From a virus, in IMG/VR virus record IMGVR_UViG_3300044636_000167, positions 1 to 33,882 of that record: DNA of 33,882 nt. One strand, 5' to 3'. The translations under genes were made by a program, and so were the position numbers. This document shows, piece after piece, positions 6,937-13,302 of this stretch. The notes beneath the pieces were generated by a model. The model did not search any database. It was not told where the DNA came from and worked only from the letters and a program-made list of their open reading frames with translations. Each line of letters starts with the position of its first letter. Positions within the stretch are counted from its first letter, which is position 1.

Positions 6937-7725
6937 ATGATATTAGCAAGTAACGGGATATTAGCAAGTTCAATTCAAAGTGGTGTAGATGCAGACTATT
7001 TAGCATTTTATAACCGTGTAATTGCAGCAGGTGGTTCATTAACATCAACTGAACAAAGTGCAACAAACCAACTTGTTTTAAGTTTAAAAGCAAATGGTAT
7101 TTGGACACCTATGAAAGCCATTTATCCAATGGTAGGAGCAAGTGCCGCAGCGTGTGCTCAAAATTTAAAAAGTTCAAGTTTTACAGGAAGTTTTACAAGC
7201 GGTTGGACTTTTGCAAGTACGGGTGCAAAACCAAACGGAACGGGTGCTTATATGAATACAGGCTTAGTTCCAAGTACAAATCTTTCTCAAAATAGTACAT
7301 CTATTTCGTATTATTCTCGAACAAATTATACAGCAACTACTGAATTTGAAATGGGAGTTGATAGTGGTCAATCTATAATATATATGGCTATTTATGCAGG
7401 GGGTTTTTCCTATGGTAATATAAATGGTTTTGGTGATGTTAGCGCAACTTCATCAAGTAATACACAAGCATTTTACCAAGTTATAAGAAATAACGCTACT
7501 CAATATAATTGGTTTAGAAATGGAACTAAAAGTGTTGCAAATATGAACTCAAGTTCAAATTTAGCTACTGGGGCAATATATATTGGTGCAAGTAATGGAG
7601 CGGGTCTTTATACTCGAAAAGAATGTGCATTTTCTTCCATCAGTAATGGATTAACCGACACCGAAGCATCCAACTTTTATACCGCAGTTCAAGCATTTCA
7701 AACAACACTTTCAAGACAAGTATAA
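6937..7725 (+). CDS. tail-associated adhesin-like protein (LamG/concanavalin-like fold suspected)
   Basis: 262 residues, starting three bases after the fibre stop. The N-terminus MILASNGILASSIQSGVDAD is followed by a helical stretch (YNRVIAAGGSLTSTEQSATN), IWTPMKAIYPMVGAS, and a long beta-rich region with SGWTFASTGAKPNGTGAYMN and ATGAIYIGASNGAGLYTRKE. This pattern recurs in tail-tip or fibre-associated proteins of Bacteroidota phages and resembles LamG-type jelly rolls, which often bind carbohydrate. The end (LTDTEASNFYTAVQAFQTTL) is helical. A role in host-surface recognition is inferred from location and composition; no catalytic motif is visible. Confidence 0.55.
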   Translation: MILASNGILASSIQSGVDADYLAFYNRVIAAGGSLTSTEQSATNQLVLSLKANGIWTPMKAIYPMVGASAAACAQNLKSSSFTGSFTSGWTFASTGAKPNGTGAYMNTGLVPSTNLSQNSTSISYYSRTNYTATTEFEMGVDSGQSIIYMAIYAGGFSYGNINGFGDVSATSSSNTQAFYQVIRNNATQYNWFRNGTKSVANMNSSSNLATGAIYIGASNGAGLYTRKECAFSSISNGLTDTEASNFYTAVQAFQTTLSRQV

Positions 7726-7952
7726 TGATAGGATATATTTTAACACCCCAAGAAAAAGACCAAGTACAAGGTCAATATTATACTCAATATCAATTTTTAA
7801 ATTGCGTTCAAGATATTGATGATGTTTGGTATTTACTATTATCAGATGAAGACCAACCCGAAGTTGAAGCAAGTCAATACGCTTGGGTATTAGATTTACC
7901 ACAAGGCGAATATACACCACCTCTACCACCACCATTCCCACCAACCGAATAA
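7725..7952 (+). CDS. small tail-region protein with proline-rich end
   Basis: 75 residues whose ATG overlaps the previous stop (TAATGA). Starts MIGYILTPQEKDQVQGQYYT and ends with an acidic segment followed by YTPPLPPPFPPTE. It is soluble and shares TAATG with the next gene. Position between fibre and lysis genes suggests a small fibre-associated or assembly protein, but no family is recognised with confidence. Confidence 0.45.
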   Translation: MIGYILTPQEKDQVQGQYYTQYQFLNCVQDIDDVWYLLLSDEDQPEVEASQYAWVLDLPQGEYTPPLPPPFPPTE

Positions 7953-8122
7953 TGATAGAATTAGAAGACCTAAAAGTAGTAGGGGCGAATGTCCTTTGTT
8001 TTATCACAATAAAGACTGTTGACCTTAATGTCGGGTTGCAGACTATTTTATTGTTAGCGACCATTATTTACACCTTTGTAAGAATAATCAACGAGTATAA
8101 AAAGTATATTTCAAACAGATGA
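7952..8122 (+). CDS. small membrane protein, possible holin component
   Basis: 56 residues from the ATG that overlaps the preceding stop (TAATG). A single membrane helix lies at about residues 28-45 (LQTILLLATIIYTFVRII) and a basic tail NEYKKYISNR follows. Its position at the head of a run of small membrane proteins ending with an endolysin gene supports a lysis role. Similar one-helix proteins are common just before Bacteroidota phage endolysins. The 3' end overlaps the next gene (ATGA). An in-frame upstream start at 7883 would overlap the previous gene heavily and is less likely. Confidence 0.5.
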   Translation: MIELEDLKVVGANVLCFITIKTVDLNVGLQTILLLATIIYTFVRIINEYKKYISNR

Positions 8123-8472
8123 TAAATTTAATATTAATGATAGTTGCCAGTGTTATGGCTTTTATTTTAATGCCAATCTCTTTAGTTTACGGATTAATTA
8201 GGGCAATCTTCCACAAAGGATTAAGTTATTACTTTTGGCAGTGTGCATTGAGCATAGACCAAACAGGTAATACCGTATGCCAATTTCTTTTCAATGACTT
8301 TATGATTAAACCAAACGGTCACAGATGCGGAAATCCTGATGAAACAGTAAGCTATGTATTAGGAATGAACAAAGCCAAAGGAACACTTTATCCTTTAGGT
8401 TTAGCCGTTGCTTGGATTTTAAATAAAATTGACCCAAACCATGTTGAAAAAGCAGTTAAAAACGAGCAGTAA
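8119..8472 (+). CDS. conserved membrane-anchored phage protein of lysis region
   Basis: 117 residues. The N-terminal 30 residues form a membrane helix (LILMIVASVMAFILMPISLVYG). The rest contains SIDQTGNTVCQFLFNDFMI, GNPDETVSYVLG and LGLAVAWILNKIDPNHVEKA. This combination recurs in Bacteroidota phages next to endolysin genes. Its role is unknown; a lysis-associated membrane function is the best guess from context. It is coupled to the previous gene through ATGA and overlaps the following gene by 32 bases. Confidence 0.5.
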   Translation: MINLILMIVASVMAFILMPISLVYGLIRAIFHKGLSYYFWQCALSIDQTGNTVCQFLFNDFMIKPNGHRCGNPDETVSYVLGMNKAKGTLYPLGLAVAWILNKIDPNHVEKAVKNEQ

Positions 8473-8692
8473 AGCAATAAGACCTTTTACTAAAAAGGCA
8501 ATAGTAAGCAAGACCCCTGATTGGGCGAAGTGGACATTTAGAATAGTATTTGCCATCACGGGTGTAGCAACATTTGTAATAGCAAGTGACCCAAGTATTG
8601 AAGACACTTTAAAAGTTCAAATAGGTGTTTATCTCAAAGGTGTAGATATGTTTGTGTTTACCTTGTCTAAGATGTTTGGAGTGACCAAATAA
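8441..8692 (+). CDS. holin-like small membrane protein
   Basis: 83 residues from ATG 8441, preferred over an upstream TTG at 8429. A basic N-terminus (MLKKQLKTSSKAIRPFTKKA) precedes KTPDWAKWTFRIVFAITGVA, a membrane helix, and a second hydrophobic stretch near the C-terminus (GVYLKGVDMFVFTLSKMFGV). A basic head with one or two hydrophobic helices, immediately upstream of an endolysin, is typical of small Bacteroidota phage holins. The stop shares TAATG with a tiny 13-codon frame. Holin is an inference, since holins lack diagnostic motifs. Confidence 0.5.
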   Translation: MLKKQLKTSSKAIRPFTKKAIVSKTPDWAKWTFRIVFAITGVATFVIASDPSIEDTLKVQIGVYLKGVDMFVFTLSKMFGVTK

Positions 8693-8733
8693 TGGATGAA
8701 GATAACGATTGGTTTCCTGACCACGCAATATGA
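8692..8733 (+). CDS. 13-residue coupling peptide (uncertain)
   Basis: A tiny frame MDEDNDWFPDHAI whose ATG overlaps the holin-like gene's stop (TAATG) and whose TGA overlaps the endolysin's ATG (ATATGA). It may only carry ribosomes from one gene to the next. Whether the peptide itself matters is unknown. Confidence 0.2.
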   Translation: MDEDNDWFPDHAI

Positions 8734-9182
8734 TAGAAAAAGAAATAGAATCAGCACTAAATAAAGTTAAAGAAGTTTACGGTGTAAATCACGCCAAGAG
8801 ATTGGAACAACTATTTAGAAATGAAACTGCACATTTTAAAAGTGGCAATTTCGTAAAAACTTTAAGTGCAGGTATGGAGGTTGGTGCAAAAGTTATATAT
8901 CCTTATGGGTGGAATTCTTTGTTTGAATTTTGGGAAAATAATCCGCAATACAAACCAACAGGAACACACAGCCAAGCCGAAAACACATCAGCATTAGCAA
9001 AAAAAAGAGGTGTAAGAACTTTTATTAAGTTTGGTAGCGTGGAAGCAAGTATGATGACAGTTGCCCATCTGATTAAATTAAGAGGTGGTAATTTTGGTGC
9101 TTGGTTTAGCAAAAATGCAGTTCAGCAGTTAGCATATAACCACGAACTTGATAAAATTAAAGTAAGAATTGTTAAAGATTAA
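8730..9182 (+). CDS. predicted endolysin (peptidoglycan hydrolase)
   Basis: 150 residues, soluble, without signal peptide. The segment RLEQLFRNETAHFKSGNF carries a probable catalytic Glu32 in a transglycosylase/lysozyme-like ETxHF context, followed by GMEVGAKVIYPYGWNSLFEF and, later, EASMMTVAHLIKLRGGNFGA. This layout matches the small endolysins of Bacteroidota phages that cleave the glycan strand. Location directly after holin-like genes supports the call. Lack of a signal peptide means it needs a holin to cross the membrane. The start overlaps the tiny 8692 frame through ATGA. The exact glycosidase class cannot be settled from sequence reading. Confidence 0.65.
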   Translation: MIEKEIESALNKVKEVYGVNHAKRLEQLFRNETAHFKSGNFVKTLSAGMEVGAKVIYPYGWNSLFEFWENNPQYKPTGTHSQAENTSALAKKRGVRTFIKFGSVEASMMTVAHLIKLRGGNFGAWFSKNAVQQLAYNHELDKIKVRIVKD

Positions 9183-9183
9183 T

Positions 9184-9294
9184 TATATTTGTAGTTCAGT
9201 TGGCAACTCTCACGAAAAAAAGTTGTATTATTTTTGGAATGTGGTTTCACGTTCTAATAAAACCCGTAACGAGGCTTAACTGTTACGGGTTTTT
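9184..9294 (+). ncRNA. possible ~100-nt transcript between promoter-like box and terminator
   Basis: A TATATTTG box (9184-9191) lies just after the endolysin stop, and a strong terminator ends at about 9294, with no protein frame of note between them. The stretch contains AGTTGGCAACT, a small palindrome, and a 12-base resemblance to a tRNA D-arm (TAGTTCAGTTGG), but no acceptor or T-arm. No properly spaced -33 TTG is present, so independent transcription is uncertain; the region may simply be the 3' UTR of the lysis operon. Confidence 0.25.
9259..9294 (+). terminator. strong intrinsic terminator after lysis operon
   Basis: A perfect 12-bp stem (AAAACCCGTAAC at 9259-9270 with GTTACGGGTTTT at 9282-9293), an 11-base loop and a run of T. 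It ends transcription of the lysis region. Confidence 0.85.
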
Positions 9295-9311
9295 ATTATT
9301 GAATAAAAATT

Positions 9312-9319
9312 TACCTTTG
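9312..9319 (+). promoter_or_regulatory. -7 box TACCTTTG of a near-leaderless promoter
   Basis: It matches the Bacteroidota TAnnTTTG box and ends only four bases before the ATG at 9324, immediately downstream of a terminator, where a new promoter is required. No TTG is found at the usual -33 spacing. The transcript would start at or next to the start codon. Confidence 0.4.
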
Positions 9320-9323
9320 TATT

Positions 9324-9881
9324 ATGAATCAGAAAATTAGTTATTACCTTAATGTTTTTTTAGCTGTCGGGCTGTTTTTAATCGTGTTTAAATTTGGTTG
9401 TAACCCTGAATACAAAGATAGACCGATTGTGATTAATGAAGTAGCTGATTCAAATGCTATTTATGACCATTTAGAAGCCGAATACAGCAATCAAATAGTA
9501 AAGTTGTATGATAGTATAGAATTTCTAAATAAACACGTTAAAACGGCTAAAACGATATATAAAACTAAAATAGTTCAAGTATGGAGTGATTCAGTAGTTA
9601 CTACCAATGAATGTTCTGAAGTAGTTGAACAGGCAAATGCTATAATTTCAAGTCAAGATACATTGATAAAAGTTCAAAGTCGTAGTTTAATAATGTGCGA
9701 TTCCCAATTTGGGAACTTAAAAAACCAAGTAGAACTAAACAAAGGGTATGCGGATATATTGTTAAAGCAAAAAATTGAATTGATAAAAGAATATGACAAG
9801 ATTAATGCAAATACTAAACGAAATAAATTATTAGCAGGAATAGTAGCTGCTATATTAGTTAGCTTCAGTTTAATAAAGTAG
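9324..9881 (+). CDS. membrane-anchored coiled-coil protein, possible spanin-like
   Basis: 185 residues. A membrane helix near the N-terminus (about residues 8-25, YLNVFLAVGLFLIVFKFG) is followed by a long polar helical region with coiled-coil character (residues 40-160) and a second hydrophobic helix at the C-terminus (LLAGIVAAILVSFSLI). Position right after the endolysin and the periplasm-spanning layout recall Rz-type spanins or Rz-like proteins. The Cys at the end of the first helix (KFGC) is not a good lipobox. It is flanked by terminators on both sides, so it appears to be its own transcription unit. Confidence 0.5.
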   Translation: MNQKISYYLNVFLAVGLFLIVFKFGCNPEYKDRPIVINEVADSNAIYDHLEAEYSNQIVKLYDSIEFLNKHVKTAKTIYKTKIVQVWSDSVVTTNECSEVVEQANAIISSQDTLIKVQSRSLIMCDSQFGNLKNQVELNKGYADILLKQKIELIKEYDKINANTKRNKLLAGIVAAILVSFSLIK

Positions 9882-9956: not shown

Positions 9957-10160
9957 ATGACAGACGCAATTAACCCGGCACATTACCGAGATGGAAAAAT
10001 TGAAGTTATTGACTTTATTGAAGATAAAGGCTTTGGTTATAATTTAGGAAACGTTATAAAATATGTTTCAAGAGCAGGAAAGAAATCGGATAAAATAGTT
10101 GAAGATTTAGAAAAGGCAAAGTGGTATTTAGAAAGGGAAATTAACAAACTAAAGAAATGA
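9957..10160 (+). CDS. DUF3310 protein (SaV-like)
   Basis: 67 residues from ATG 9957, which directly follows the terminator's T run. The pattern NPAHYRDGKIEVIDFIEDKG, GNVIKYVSRAGKK and DLEKAKWYLEREI is the DUF3310 signature, a small phage family sometimes annotated as a nucleotide-kinase-like or SaV-like protein. Its biochemical role is not established. It is coupled to the metallophosphoesterase gene by a four-base ATGA overlap, which suggests joint function or dosage. An upstream in-frame non-ATG start would run through the terminator hairpin and is rejected. Confidence 0.8.
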   Translation: MTDAINPAHYRDGKIEVIDFIEDKGFGYNLGNVIKYVSRAGKKSDKIVEDLEKAKWYLEREINKLKK

Positions 10161-11134
10161 ATGAATTAGAAAAAACAAAACAACTACGAGAATTTATAAA
10201 ATTATATCCTAATTATCCTAATAAGAAATTAGCACGAATGTTTTATAAGGAAAATCCATTATTATACACCAATGAAGAAGGCGTAAGGTCTATGATTAGA
10301 AAATTATTAGGACAATCAGGAAAAGAAATACAAAAAGACAAATCATTATTTATGGATGCTAAACCTTTAAATCCTTACAACCTACCTGAATCCTTTGAGT
10401 GCGATTATAGCCCATTTGAATTGAAATGTCACAATCTTTTAGTTTTAAGTGACGTGCATATTCCTTATCATTCTATAAGTGCTTTATCAACTTGTTTTGA
10501 CTATGTATCAGGGAAAAAAGTAGATGCAATTCTATTAAACGGTGATACCATAGATTGCCATATGCTTAGTAGATTTGTGCGTGACCCAAAGGCAAGAAAC
10601 TTTGGTGAAGAATTAGATGCCTTTGCGGAGTTCTTTGTCATTTTAAAAAAGCTATGGGATGTGCCGATATATTTTAAACTTGGAAATCACGAAGAGAGAT
10701 ATAATCACTTTCTTTGGATGAAGGCAAATGAACTAACGGGAGTTGAAGAATTTAACTTAGAGGCGATAATTAAGAAAAGAGCCAATGTAGAAGTTATTTC
10801 CGACAAAAGAATAATCAAAGCAGGTAATCTTAATATCTTACACGGACACGAATTTCAGGGCGGTGTGTTCAGTCCTGTAAACATTGCAAGGGGATTGTTC
10901 CTTAAAGCAAAAGTAAACGCAATGCAAGGGCATAACCATCAGACATCGGAACATTCAGAAAGAGATTTAGAGGGAAAGATAACAACAACTTGGAGTGTAG
11001 GGTGTTTAAGTGAATTACATCCTGCATATATGCCTATTAACAAATGGAATCACGGGTTTAGTATGGTGCAAATTGAAGATAATGGTTCGTTTGAGGTGCA
11101 GAATAAAAGAATCCATCAAGGGAAACTATTGTAA
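10157..11134 (+). CDS. calcineurin-like metallophosphoesterase
   Basis: 325 residues. The five metal-binding blocks are present in order: LLVLSDVHIPYH (Asp99, His101), LLNGDTID (Asp130), KLGNHEERY (Asn177, His178), ILHGHEF (His229, His231) and QGHNHQ (His259, His261). The first 60 residues form a separate helical region (KLARMFYKENPLLYTNEEGV) that looks like a DNA-binding helix-turn-helix. The enzyme should hydrolyse phosphomonoesters or diesters with a two-metal centre; a DNA or nucleotide substrate is plausible given the N-terminal part. It is coupled to the DUF3310 gene by ATGA. Confidence 0.85.
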   Translation: MNELEKTKQLREFIKLYPNYPNKKLARMFYKENPLLYTNEEGVRSMIRKLLGQSGKEIQKDKSLFMDAKPLNPYNLPESFECDYSPFELKCHNLLVLSDVHIPYHSISALSTCFDYVSGKKVDAILLNGDTIDCHMLSRFVRDPKARNFGEELDAFAEFFVILKKLWDVPIYFKLGNHEERYNHFLWMKANELTGVEEFNLEAIIKKRANVEVISDKRIIKAGNLNILHGHEFQGGVFSPVNIARGLFLKAKVNAMQGHNHQTSEHSERDLEGKITTTWSVGCLSELHPAYMPINKWNHGFSMVQIEDNGSFEVQNKRIHQGKLL

Positions 11135-11300: not shown

Positions 11301-11379
11301 TATTACAGCGTTACTAACTTACACACCAATAACACCGATATTTGGGTTAAATAATTAAATAGCACCCAAAAATTAGTAA

Positions 11380-11392
11380 ATGCACCTTATTT
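11380..11392 (+). repeat. direct repeat ATGCACCTTATTT, copy 1
   Basis: The identical 13 bases recur at 11849-11861. This copy runs into the TTATTTTAAAATAA palindrome and stands just before the small-RNA promoter; the other copy runs into the operator of the next gene. Confidence 0.6.
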
Positions 11393-11400
11393 TAAAATAA
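11387..11400. promoter_or_regulatory. perfect 14-bp palindrome, candidate operator
   Basis: TTATTTTAAAATAA is self-complementary and ends one base before the TTTG -33 element of the 11402-11433 promoter. A protein binding here would affect that promoter. Palindromes of A/T can also arise by chance in such DNA. Confidence 0.35.
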
Positions 11401-11401
11401 A

Positions 11402-11433
11402 TTTGCATAATTAAAACCTATGTTGTAATTTTG
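11402..11433 (+). promoter_or_regulatory. Bacteroidota-type promoter (TTTG N20 TAATTTTG)
   Basis: TTTG at 11402-11405 and TAATTTTG at 11426-11433 are separated by 20 bases, close to the consensus for the primary sigma factor of Bacteroidota. The predicted transcription start is near 11440, with no protein frame behind it but an RNA-like segment and a terminator. Confidence 0.6.
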
Positions 11434-11439
11434 AAATCA

Positions 11440-11537
11440 AGTTATTGGAGGTAACGTGAAAATTTGACTTTATAATATTACCAAATAATATAAACCCTCA
11501 AAATTAGCCCTCTACCTCCAATAGATGGGCTTTTTTT
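11440..11537 (+). ncRNA. predicted small RNA, ~100 nt
   Basis: It begins at the expected start of the 11402-11433 promoter and ends in a T-run terminator. ATTGGAGGTA (11444-11453), near its 5' end, is perfectly complementary over 10 bases to TACCTCCAAT (11513-11522), which forms the loop of the terminator hairpin. The RNA could therefore form a pseudoknot, or switch between a terminator and an antiterminator-like helix. No open frame of useful length lies inside. It may act as a regulatory RNA or an attenuator for transcription into the structured element downstream. No known family is recognised. Confidence 0.5.
11506..11537 (+). terminator. terminator of the predicted small RNA
   Basis: AGCCC (11506-11510) pairs with GGGCT (11527-11531), extended by TCT/AGA across a one-base bulge, followed by seven T. 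The loop is complementary to the RNA's own 5' region. Confidence 0.65.
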
Positions 11538-11546
11538 ATGCCTTTG

Positions 11547-11824
11547 ATGTATTGGATTAATCAAATCAAAAATAATCCTAAGAGGCGAATTTGAAATACA
11601 TACCAATAAATAGTTATTGTTGAAGTCCATAGACGTTTTCTGAAGGGGTTTGCGGTTATGGCGGGTAATATTCAATAAATAAGGCAATACTATTAAAAGA
11701 AACTGAAATAGTAAGTAGTGAGGACTATAATACTAACTTCAAAAGAAGTCCCAAGCAGTTTTATTTGGCGTAAGGATTAGAGATAATAAAATCAGGTAGG
11801 TATTACCCAAGATAAAACCCCTTC
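11547..11824 (+). ncRNA. large multi-stem structured RNA candidate
   Basis: Perfect helices can be read in order. ATGTATT 11547-11553 pairs with 11595-11601, stacked on GGATTA 11554-11559 with 11573-11578. CAATAA 11604-11609 pairs with 11614-11619. The long closing helix GAAGGGGTTT 11642-11651 pairs with AAACCCCTTC 11815-11824. Inside it, GGGTAATA 11663-11670 pairs with TATTACCC 11801-11808, and this encloses three hairpins: TACTATT 11688-11694 with 11707-11713, ACTTC 11736-11740 with 11745-11749, and TTTTATT 11759-11765 with 11785-11791. Nested long-range helices enclosing a multi-branch junction are hard to explain by chance. No tRNA, tmRNA, RNase P, group I or group II hallmark was recognised. 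Strand is assumed from the neighbouring genes. Confidence 0.5.
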
Positions 11825-11848
11825 TATGCATCATAAATAGATAAAACA

Positions 11849-11861
11849 ATGCACCTTATTT
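11849..11861 (+). repeat. direct repeat ATGCACCTTATTT, copy 2
   Basis: Identical to 11380-11392. Here the repeat leads directly into the ATTTAGA-N5-TCTAAAT operator. The shorter core ACCTTATTTAGATT is also present at 16088. Confidence 0.6.
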
Positions 11862-11939: not shown

Positions 11940-12203
11940 ATGAAAAAGACATTAGAACTAACATTATCCGAAAGCGAAGGAGTAAAGATAGAAGTATCTT
12001 GCGATGTACTTAGAATTGAAACTGACAATCCTGCGACACATCCTGATGACCCCAATCAAGCAACCATTACAGAGTATTGGTGTAAAAACATCAATAAATT
12101 AAAGATAAACGGTTTTGAGTTGGGAATTTACAACCATAAAACTTTAAAAGAAATTGAACGATTAGTGGAAGAACAATTAGAATCTAATCCTGATTTATTT
12201 TAA
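11940..12203 (+). CDS. hypothetical early protein
   Basis: 87 residues from ATG 11940, chosen because the promoter box ends at 11919, which excludes an upstream TTG frame start at 11889. Starts MKKTLELTLSESEGVKIEVS and contains ETDNPATHPDDPNQATITEY and a helical acidic end (LKEIERLVEEQLESNPDLF). Soluble and acidic, no motif recognised. It is the first gene of a unit controlled by operator A, together with the next two genes. Confidence 0.5.
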   Translation: MKKTLELTLSESEGVKIEVSCDVLRIETDNPATHPDDPNQATITEYWCKNINKLKINGFELGIYNHKTLKEIERLVEEQLESNPDLF

Positions 12204-13193: not shown

Positions 13194-13291
13194 GCTACCA
13201 AGGATGAAAATCTTTAAAAATATATCCCCGTTTAATACATTGCAATTTGTGACATTCTGTTGCACCTTGGTAGCCTTTGTATTATTCGGGG
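13194..13291 (+). promoter_or_regulatory. leader with interleaved inverted repeats (possible pseudoknot)
   Basis: GCTACCAAGG (13194-13203), at the predicted transcript start, is perfectly complementary to CCTTGGTAGC (13265-13274). CCCCG (13226-13230) can pair with CGGGG (13287-13291), crossing the first helix. The first arm ends immediately before the ATG at 13204, so the fold could control translation of the small peptide; as DNA it could be an operator. Confidence 0.4.
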
Positions 13292-13302
13292 TATTTTTAT
13301 AA
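13204..13302 (+). CDS. 32-residue single-helix membrane peptide
   Basis: MKIFKNISPFNTLQFVTFCC is followed by TLVAFVLFGVFL: a basic N-terminus and one hydrophobic helix. The frame fills the space between the promoter and the next gene exactly, its TAA directly abutting the next ATG, which favours a real gene. Function unknown; the inverted repeats overlap its coding sequence. Confidence 0.4.
   Translation: MKIFKNISPFNTLQFVTFCCTLVAFVLFGVFL

Follow-up and report, generated by a model that had tools for sequence, protein, structure and literature searches.

The put RNA of phage HK022 is a cis antitermination element of the lambda family that has no complement between a loop and the terminator, and Racr anti-CRISPR RNAs are copies of a CRISPR repeat which act as decoys of host defence. 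Accessory cassettes exchanged between phages usually serve counter-defence or host takeover. Phage noncoding RNAs that work without a protein partner gene are rarely recognised, being skipped by gene callers and missing from Rfam. GOLLD and ROOL are phage-borne, noncoding and highly structured RNAs of unknown function with loop-loop kisses in their architecture, which span ~660 to over 800 nt, are matched by Rfam models and often reside close to tRNA islands (PMC12286853). Equally, palindromic, phage-linked structured RNA candidates such as HMP_4078, with ~109 bp and from the human gut, have been described in Bacteroidota (PMC8040213).

The locus analysed here is located in a 33.9-kb virus record, the whole of which is called the window. 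Its phage genes are all encoded on the plus strand and include those for portal, minor tail, metallophosphoesterase (10157-11134), NinG, Erf-like annealing protein, sigma-factor-like protein and terminase. As several genes are preceded by promoters of the type TAnnTTTG, with TTTG / TAnnTTTG being the Bacteroidota sigma consensus (PMC7366714), the host of the phage is probably a Bacteroidota bacterium. The longest protein-poor stretch of the window, AT-rich and at the edge of the gene block for replication and recombination, extends from the metallophosphoesterase gene to an 87-aa open reading frame (ORF) at 11940. Within this stretch, we consider with moderate confidence positions 11379-11861 to be an accessory phage cassette that provides a stand-alone, probably trans-acting RNA of a new class (RNA2), with a kissing-loop RNA (RNA1) that accompanies or gates it. 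A multi-helix RNA at the place of RNA2 had been proposed before; the promoter, the upstream terminated RNA1 with its self-complementary loops and the cassette borders go beyond this original prediction (Table 1). Covariation supports the fold, a promoter is present, the borders are defined and empty sites occur naturally, so that the cassette is directly testable.

Table 1. Features of the RNA cassette (window coordinates; L005 is the more distant relative, L003 a related locus with an empty site)
Feature	Position	Strand	Remark
Direct repeat, 14 bp, left copy, AATGCACCTTATTT	11379..11392	.	two copies in window, one at L003 empty site
Palindrome TTATTTTAAAATAA, possible operator	11387..11400	.	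upstream of promoter; read from sequence
-33 element TTTG	11402..11405	+	match to Bacteroidota consensus (PMC7366714)
-7 element TAATTTTG	11426..11433	+	transcript start expected few bases downstream; L005: TATTTTTG at 7252, same place relative to its RNA
RNA1 hairpin A, GUUA[UUGGAGG]UAAC	11441..11455	+	loop 11445-11451 perfectly complementary to terminator loop
RNA1 middle hairpin	11469..11494	+	folds in window and L005
RNA1 intrinsic terminator, AGCCCUCUA[CCUCCAA]UAGAUGGGCU + U7	11506..11537	+	L005: intact terminator, different sequence
RNA2 5' domain	11547..11641	+	~88% identical to L005
5'-domain hairpin GGAUUA/UAAUCC	11554-11559 / 11573-11578	+	invariant
5'-domain variable hairpin CAAUAA/UUAUUG	within 11547..11641	+	
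RNA2 P1, 5' strand GAAGGGGUUU	11642..11651	+	L005: GAGAGGUUUU, 3 compensatory double changes
RNA2 P2, 5' strand GGGUAAUA	11663..11670	+	window = L005, invariant
RNA2 P3, 5' strand GAAACUG	11699..11705	+	L005: GGCACUG; 1 compensatory double change, 1 A-U to G-U
RNA2 apical stretch, 49 nt	11702..11750	+	zero differences window vs L005
Apical hairpins UAGUA/UACUA, GUAGU/ACUAU, ACUUC/GAAGU	within 11702..11750	+	
RNA2 P3, 3' strand CAGUUUU	11756..11762	+	L005: CAGUGUU
RNA2 P6 hairpin GAUU/AAUC	11775..11793	+	L005: G-C to G-U
RNA2 P2, 3' strand UAUUACCC	11801..11808	+	
RNA2 P1, 3' strand AAACCCCUUC	11815..11824	+	L005: AAAACCUCUC
Direct repeat, right copy, AATGCACCTTATTT	11848..11861	.	runs into palindrome and promoter of next gene

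That the RNA was of no recognisable class held up when the 4227 families of Rfam 15, including GOLLD, ROOL, 6S, tmRNA, group I/II introns and riboswitches, gave zero matches in the window at the gathering threshold. Matches allowed up to E 10 were to eukaryotic and viral families and suhB, all of them due to chance and well short of the cut-offs. Equally, ARAGORN found no tRNA or tmRNA in the window, blastn against INPHARED phages and PLSDB plasmids yielded only weak short matches (best E ~1 to 9, at most 20% of the query), and a description of such an RNA was not found in the literature searched. Exact and gapped patterns run through all of IMG/VR retrieved only two relatives, L002 (99% identity over 480 nt) and L005 (84% over 366 nt), other matches failing the covariance model. 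This model (R1), applied to 17 whole records and to 165 sequences comprising the window and loci, recognised only the window, L002 and L005, the rest scoring at most 14.6 bits; searches of IMG/VR, INPHARED, PLSDB and GTDB thus left three carriers. A single pattern match in the GTDB genomes, from Pelagibacter, was discarded, as the nhmmer alignment extended over just 21 nt (E 1.7) and the covariance score was noise.

Like GOLLD and ROOL, the cassette is noncoding, highly structured and phage-borne, and a loop-loop kiss is predicted in RNA1 from its sequence. Unlike these, RNA2 has ~280 nt (~390 nt together with RNA1); because of the different size, no neighbouring tRNAs and no model match, RNA2 belongs to the broad kind of structured phage noncoding RNAs of unknown role, outside the GOLLD and ROOL families. 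RNA1 resembles put and other cis antitermination RNAs as a short promoter-proximal hairpin RNA that leads up to an intrinsic terminator, with a transcription unit further downstream, but differs from put, to which its sequence was compared through Rfam, by its loop-terminator complement. With Racr the cassette shares being a small accessory phage RNA without a protein gene, and with HMP_4078-like candidates a structured RNA near Bacteroidota phage genes, from which it is set apart by their description as palindromic, ~109 bp and from the human gut. Antisense action on other phage genes was considered and rejected, as no complement exceeds 13 nt within the window.

The fold of RNA2 agrees in detail with the helices originally proposed. 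The closing helix P1 (GAAGGGGTTT/AAACCCCTTC) and the enclosed helix P2 (GGGTAATA/TATTACCC) are located exactly where they had been placed and are present in the predicted minimum-energy fold, the coordinates of the remaining helices are likewise accurate, and the fold holds in addition the inner hairpins 11709-11735 and 11736-11749 and the helix 11699-11705/11756-11762. Between window and L005, three of the ten P1 pairs are replaced on both sides with pairing kept, and in P3 one pair shows such a double change while an A-U pair becomes G-U. Overall, the 44 core pairs include four double compensatory and two one-sided compatible changes and no broken pair; random placement of the 21 substitutions retains four or more double changes with P = 3.5e-5, in what is one pairwise comparison of the only two distinct RNA2 sequences, window and L002 being nearly identical. 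RNAalifold without a supplied structure recovers the same core, with an energy of -50.5 compared to -26.2 +/- 4.0 in 300 class-preserving column shuffles (z -6.1). Furthermore, the core differs at 11% of columns (21/183), compared to 49% of the fourfold-degenerate sites of the neighbouring phosphoesterase. On this comparative evidence, compensatory pairs, none broken, and the alignment z, RNA2 is a selected multi-helix RNA fold, as had been claimed.

The expectation that shuffled sequences would fold less stably stood in part: it applies to the 191-nt core (z -2.4 in the window, -2.7 in L005) and to the column-shuffled alignment, but not to the full 278 nt, where z is -1.15 and 29 of 200 shuffles are as stable. 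Folding energy by itself is weak evidence for the full length and better for the core. Equally, the fold of the 5' domain is less sure than that of the core, since the possible helices AUGUAU/AUACAU and UAUUGG/CCAAUA are each one pair short in one relative. The apical region under P3 is likely the best candidate for a contact or active site. A further covarying helix, 11688-11691/11768-11772, was dropped, as window and L005 pair in different registers. In addition, UUGAAGU upstream of P1 (11617-11626) complements ACUUCAA in the invariant apex (11736-11751), without change between window and L005, and GAAGUCC occurs twice; an alternative pairing or switch is possible.

The predicted product of the cassette is an RNA and not a protein. 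Substitutions between window and L005 distribute over the codon positions as 13/12/10, without codon periodicity, and no plausible ORF extends across RNA2, in agreement with the protein-free interval described initially. Two short ORFs were inspected and set aside: a 69-aa minus-strand ORF (11478-11687) is not a plausible gene as its changes in L005 are mostly non-synonymous, and in a 15-codon ORF at 11547 all changes in L002 and L005 alter residues, with the ATG missing in L005.

Upstream of RNA2, the promoter is predicted to give rise to RNA1 of ~100 nt (about 11438-11537), in which the third of three hairpins, followed by U7, forms an intrinsic terminator. The terminator hairpin has -9.9 kcal/mol in the window, and its L005 counterpart, which leads into a U tract, -14.6 kcal/mol. 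In both versions the 7-nt loops of hairpin A and terminator are fully complementary (UUGGAGG/CCUCCAA in the window, GUUCGAU/AUCGAAC in L005), although RNA1 is hardly alignable between the two whereas RNA2 is at least 84% identical. By sequence, complementary loops are thus kept despite sequence change, and when the upstream part of one version is matched with the terminator loop of the other, complementarity reaches at most 6 nt and 4 nt. The complement between loop and upstream part, 11 nt in window and L002 (identical here) and 9 nt in L005, ranks as the top three among 106 terminator-like hairpins of the fetched loci, for which 4-5 is usual; dinucleotide shuffles of the upstream part reach the observed value in 0/20,000 (window) and 10/20,000 (L005) cases. 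A hairpin loop that complements the loop of its own terminator and is kept through near-complete sequence turnover is an unusual design, suggesting termination control.

As to its borders, the unit is flanked by direct repeats and is entirely absent from L003, which carries a single copy of AATGCACCTTATTT at the site next to a 96% identical phosphoesterase; it is likewise absent from L001 and L004. Because cassettes of window and L002 differ at two of 425 positions, compared to 22% of the fourfold sites of the neighbouring phosphoesterase, the comparison points to recent cassette exchange between phages. The 5' neighbour in L005 is also different (DUF3310), so that RNA2 has been kept there while both flanks were replaced. 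Protein genes of the region show the palindrome CTTATTTAGATTAATTCTAAATTAG or variants followed by a -7 element ~62 bp further on, and in this phage family operator-like palindromes are also found in front of protein genes. The RNA cassette possesses a palindrome and a promoter of its own, spaced by 40 bp, and appears, by layout, to be built like a gene unit of its phage family. The dispersed palindrome, ~62 bp upstream of the -7 element before phage genes, is found in the window at 11855, 16090 and 18649 as well as in L002, L003, L065-L079 and L084, marks the cassette joints and resembles an operator or activator site of a phage regulon. In L002, a C5-cytosine DNA methyltransferase gene (7696-9054) directly follows the RNA cassette, bounded by TTATTTAGATTAATTTTAAATTAG repeats.

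These borders bear on whether the cassette works in cis, with hairpin A providing the antiterminator strand of a transcription attenuator and RNA2 being a riboswitch-like leader of the downstream gene. The 11-bp (window) and 9-bp (L005) long-range pairings indeed compete with the terminator, and no clear terminator is evident at the 3' end of RNA2, so that transcription may run on into the next gene. However, the three carriers have three different 3' neighbours, the 87-aa ORF (window), the methyltransferase (L002) and an unrelated 115-aa ORF (L005), instead of the conserved gene typical of a leader, and in window and L002 the downstream gene possesses its own palindrome and TAxxTTTG-type promoter 3' of the cassette. 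The energies are divided: in the window the long-range pairing has -20.7 compared to -18.6 kcal/mol for separate hairpins, before any kissing energy, whereas L005 favours the intact terminator. With a kissing term estimated from the loop duplex alone, RNA1 of both window and L005 should be more stable as separate hairpins joined by a loop-loop kiss, which is why we read it as a kissing RNA whose terminator works; given the strong competing pairing, a role as attenuator or antiterminator is possible in the window. A cis-acting leader as a whole appears unlikely, and because the position of the cassette is stand-alone a trans-acting RNA is favoured.

Rated as decidedly unlikely is a single RNA of ~390 nt, in which the apparent terminator would be an internal kissing stem. 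Both parts do occur together in all three carriers at near-constant spacing, and a TAnnTTTG promoter between them was not found in window or L005; on the other hand, U7 directly after a stable stem in both versions has the form of an intrinsic terminator, and the contrast in conservation indicates that the two parts evolve differently. A DNA-level element, a replication origin or packaging site with hairpins acting as DNA, might be suspected because the intergenic stretch is AT-rich, contains long inverted repeats and lies next to the replication block, and is highly improbable, as GC skew does not turn at the cassette, close relatives lack what would be essential as an origin, two changes lead to G-U pairs well tolerated only in RNA, and a promoter precedes the RNA. 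Chance inverted repeats without function, to which the unremarkable full-length folding energy would conform, are scarcely credible in the light of the compensatory changes, the alignment z and constraint far above neutral sites.

For a stand-alone trans-acting RNA, the following course of events can be proposed. Transcription would start at the promoter of the cassette, and the loop-loop kiss would fold RNA1 and hold the terminator hairpin, such that most transcripts stop at 11537. RNA2 would arise through processing or through read-through, the latter increasing if the terminator is freed by some factor, and would probably act in trans. Its most likely mode would be to bind, with the invariant apex, to a host protein or ribonucleoprotein and so to serve as a takeover or counter-defence factor. 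RNA1 may set the amount of RNA2, or else function as a small RNA in its own right. The most specific version, a horizontally exchanged two-part cassette whose ~280-nt structured RNA, gated by the kissing-loop/terminator RNA, acts in trans to disable a host (defence) factor, is put forward tentatively.

Two other small elements were observed in the window. A candidate second small RNA of ~70-90 nt is located in a protein-free stretch at 9184-9325, where two TAnnTTTG promoters in tandem are accompanied by the hairpin GGAAUGUG/CACGUUC and, as a strong terminator, ACCCGUAAC..GUUACGGGU with U5. Furthermore, the strong promoter TATATTTG (13182) precedes a hydrophobic small ORF of 32 codons (13204-13302), the start of which is flanked by the inverted repeat CTACCAAGG/CCTTGGTAG.
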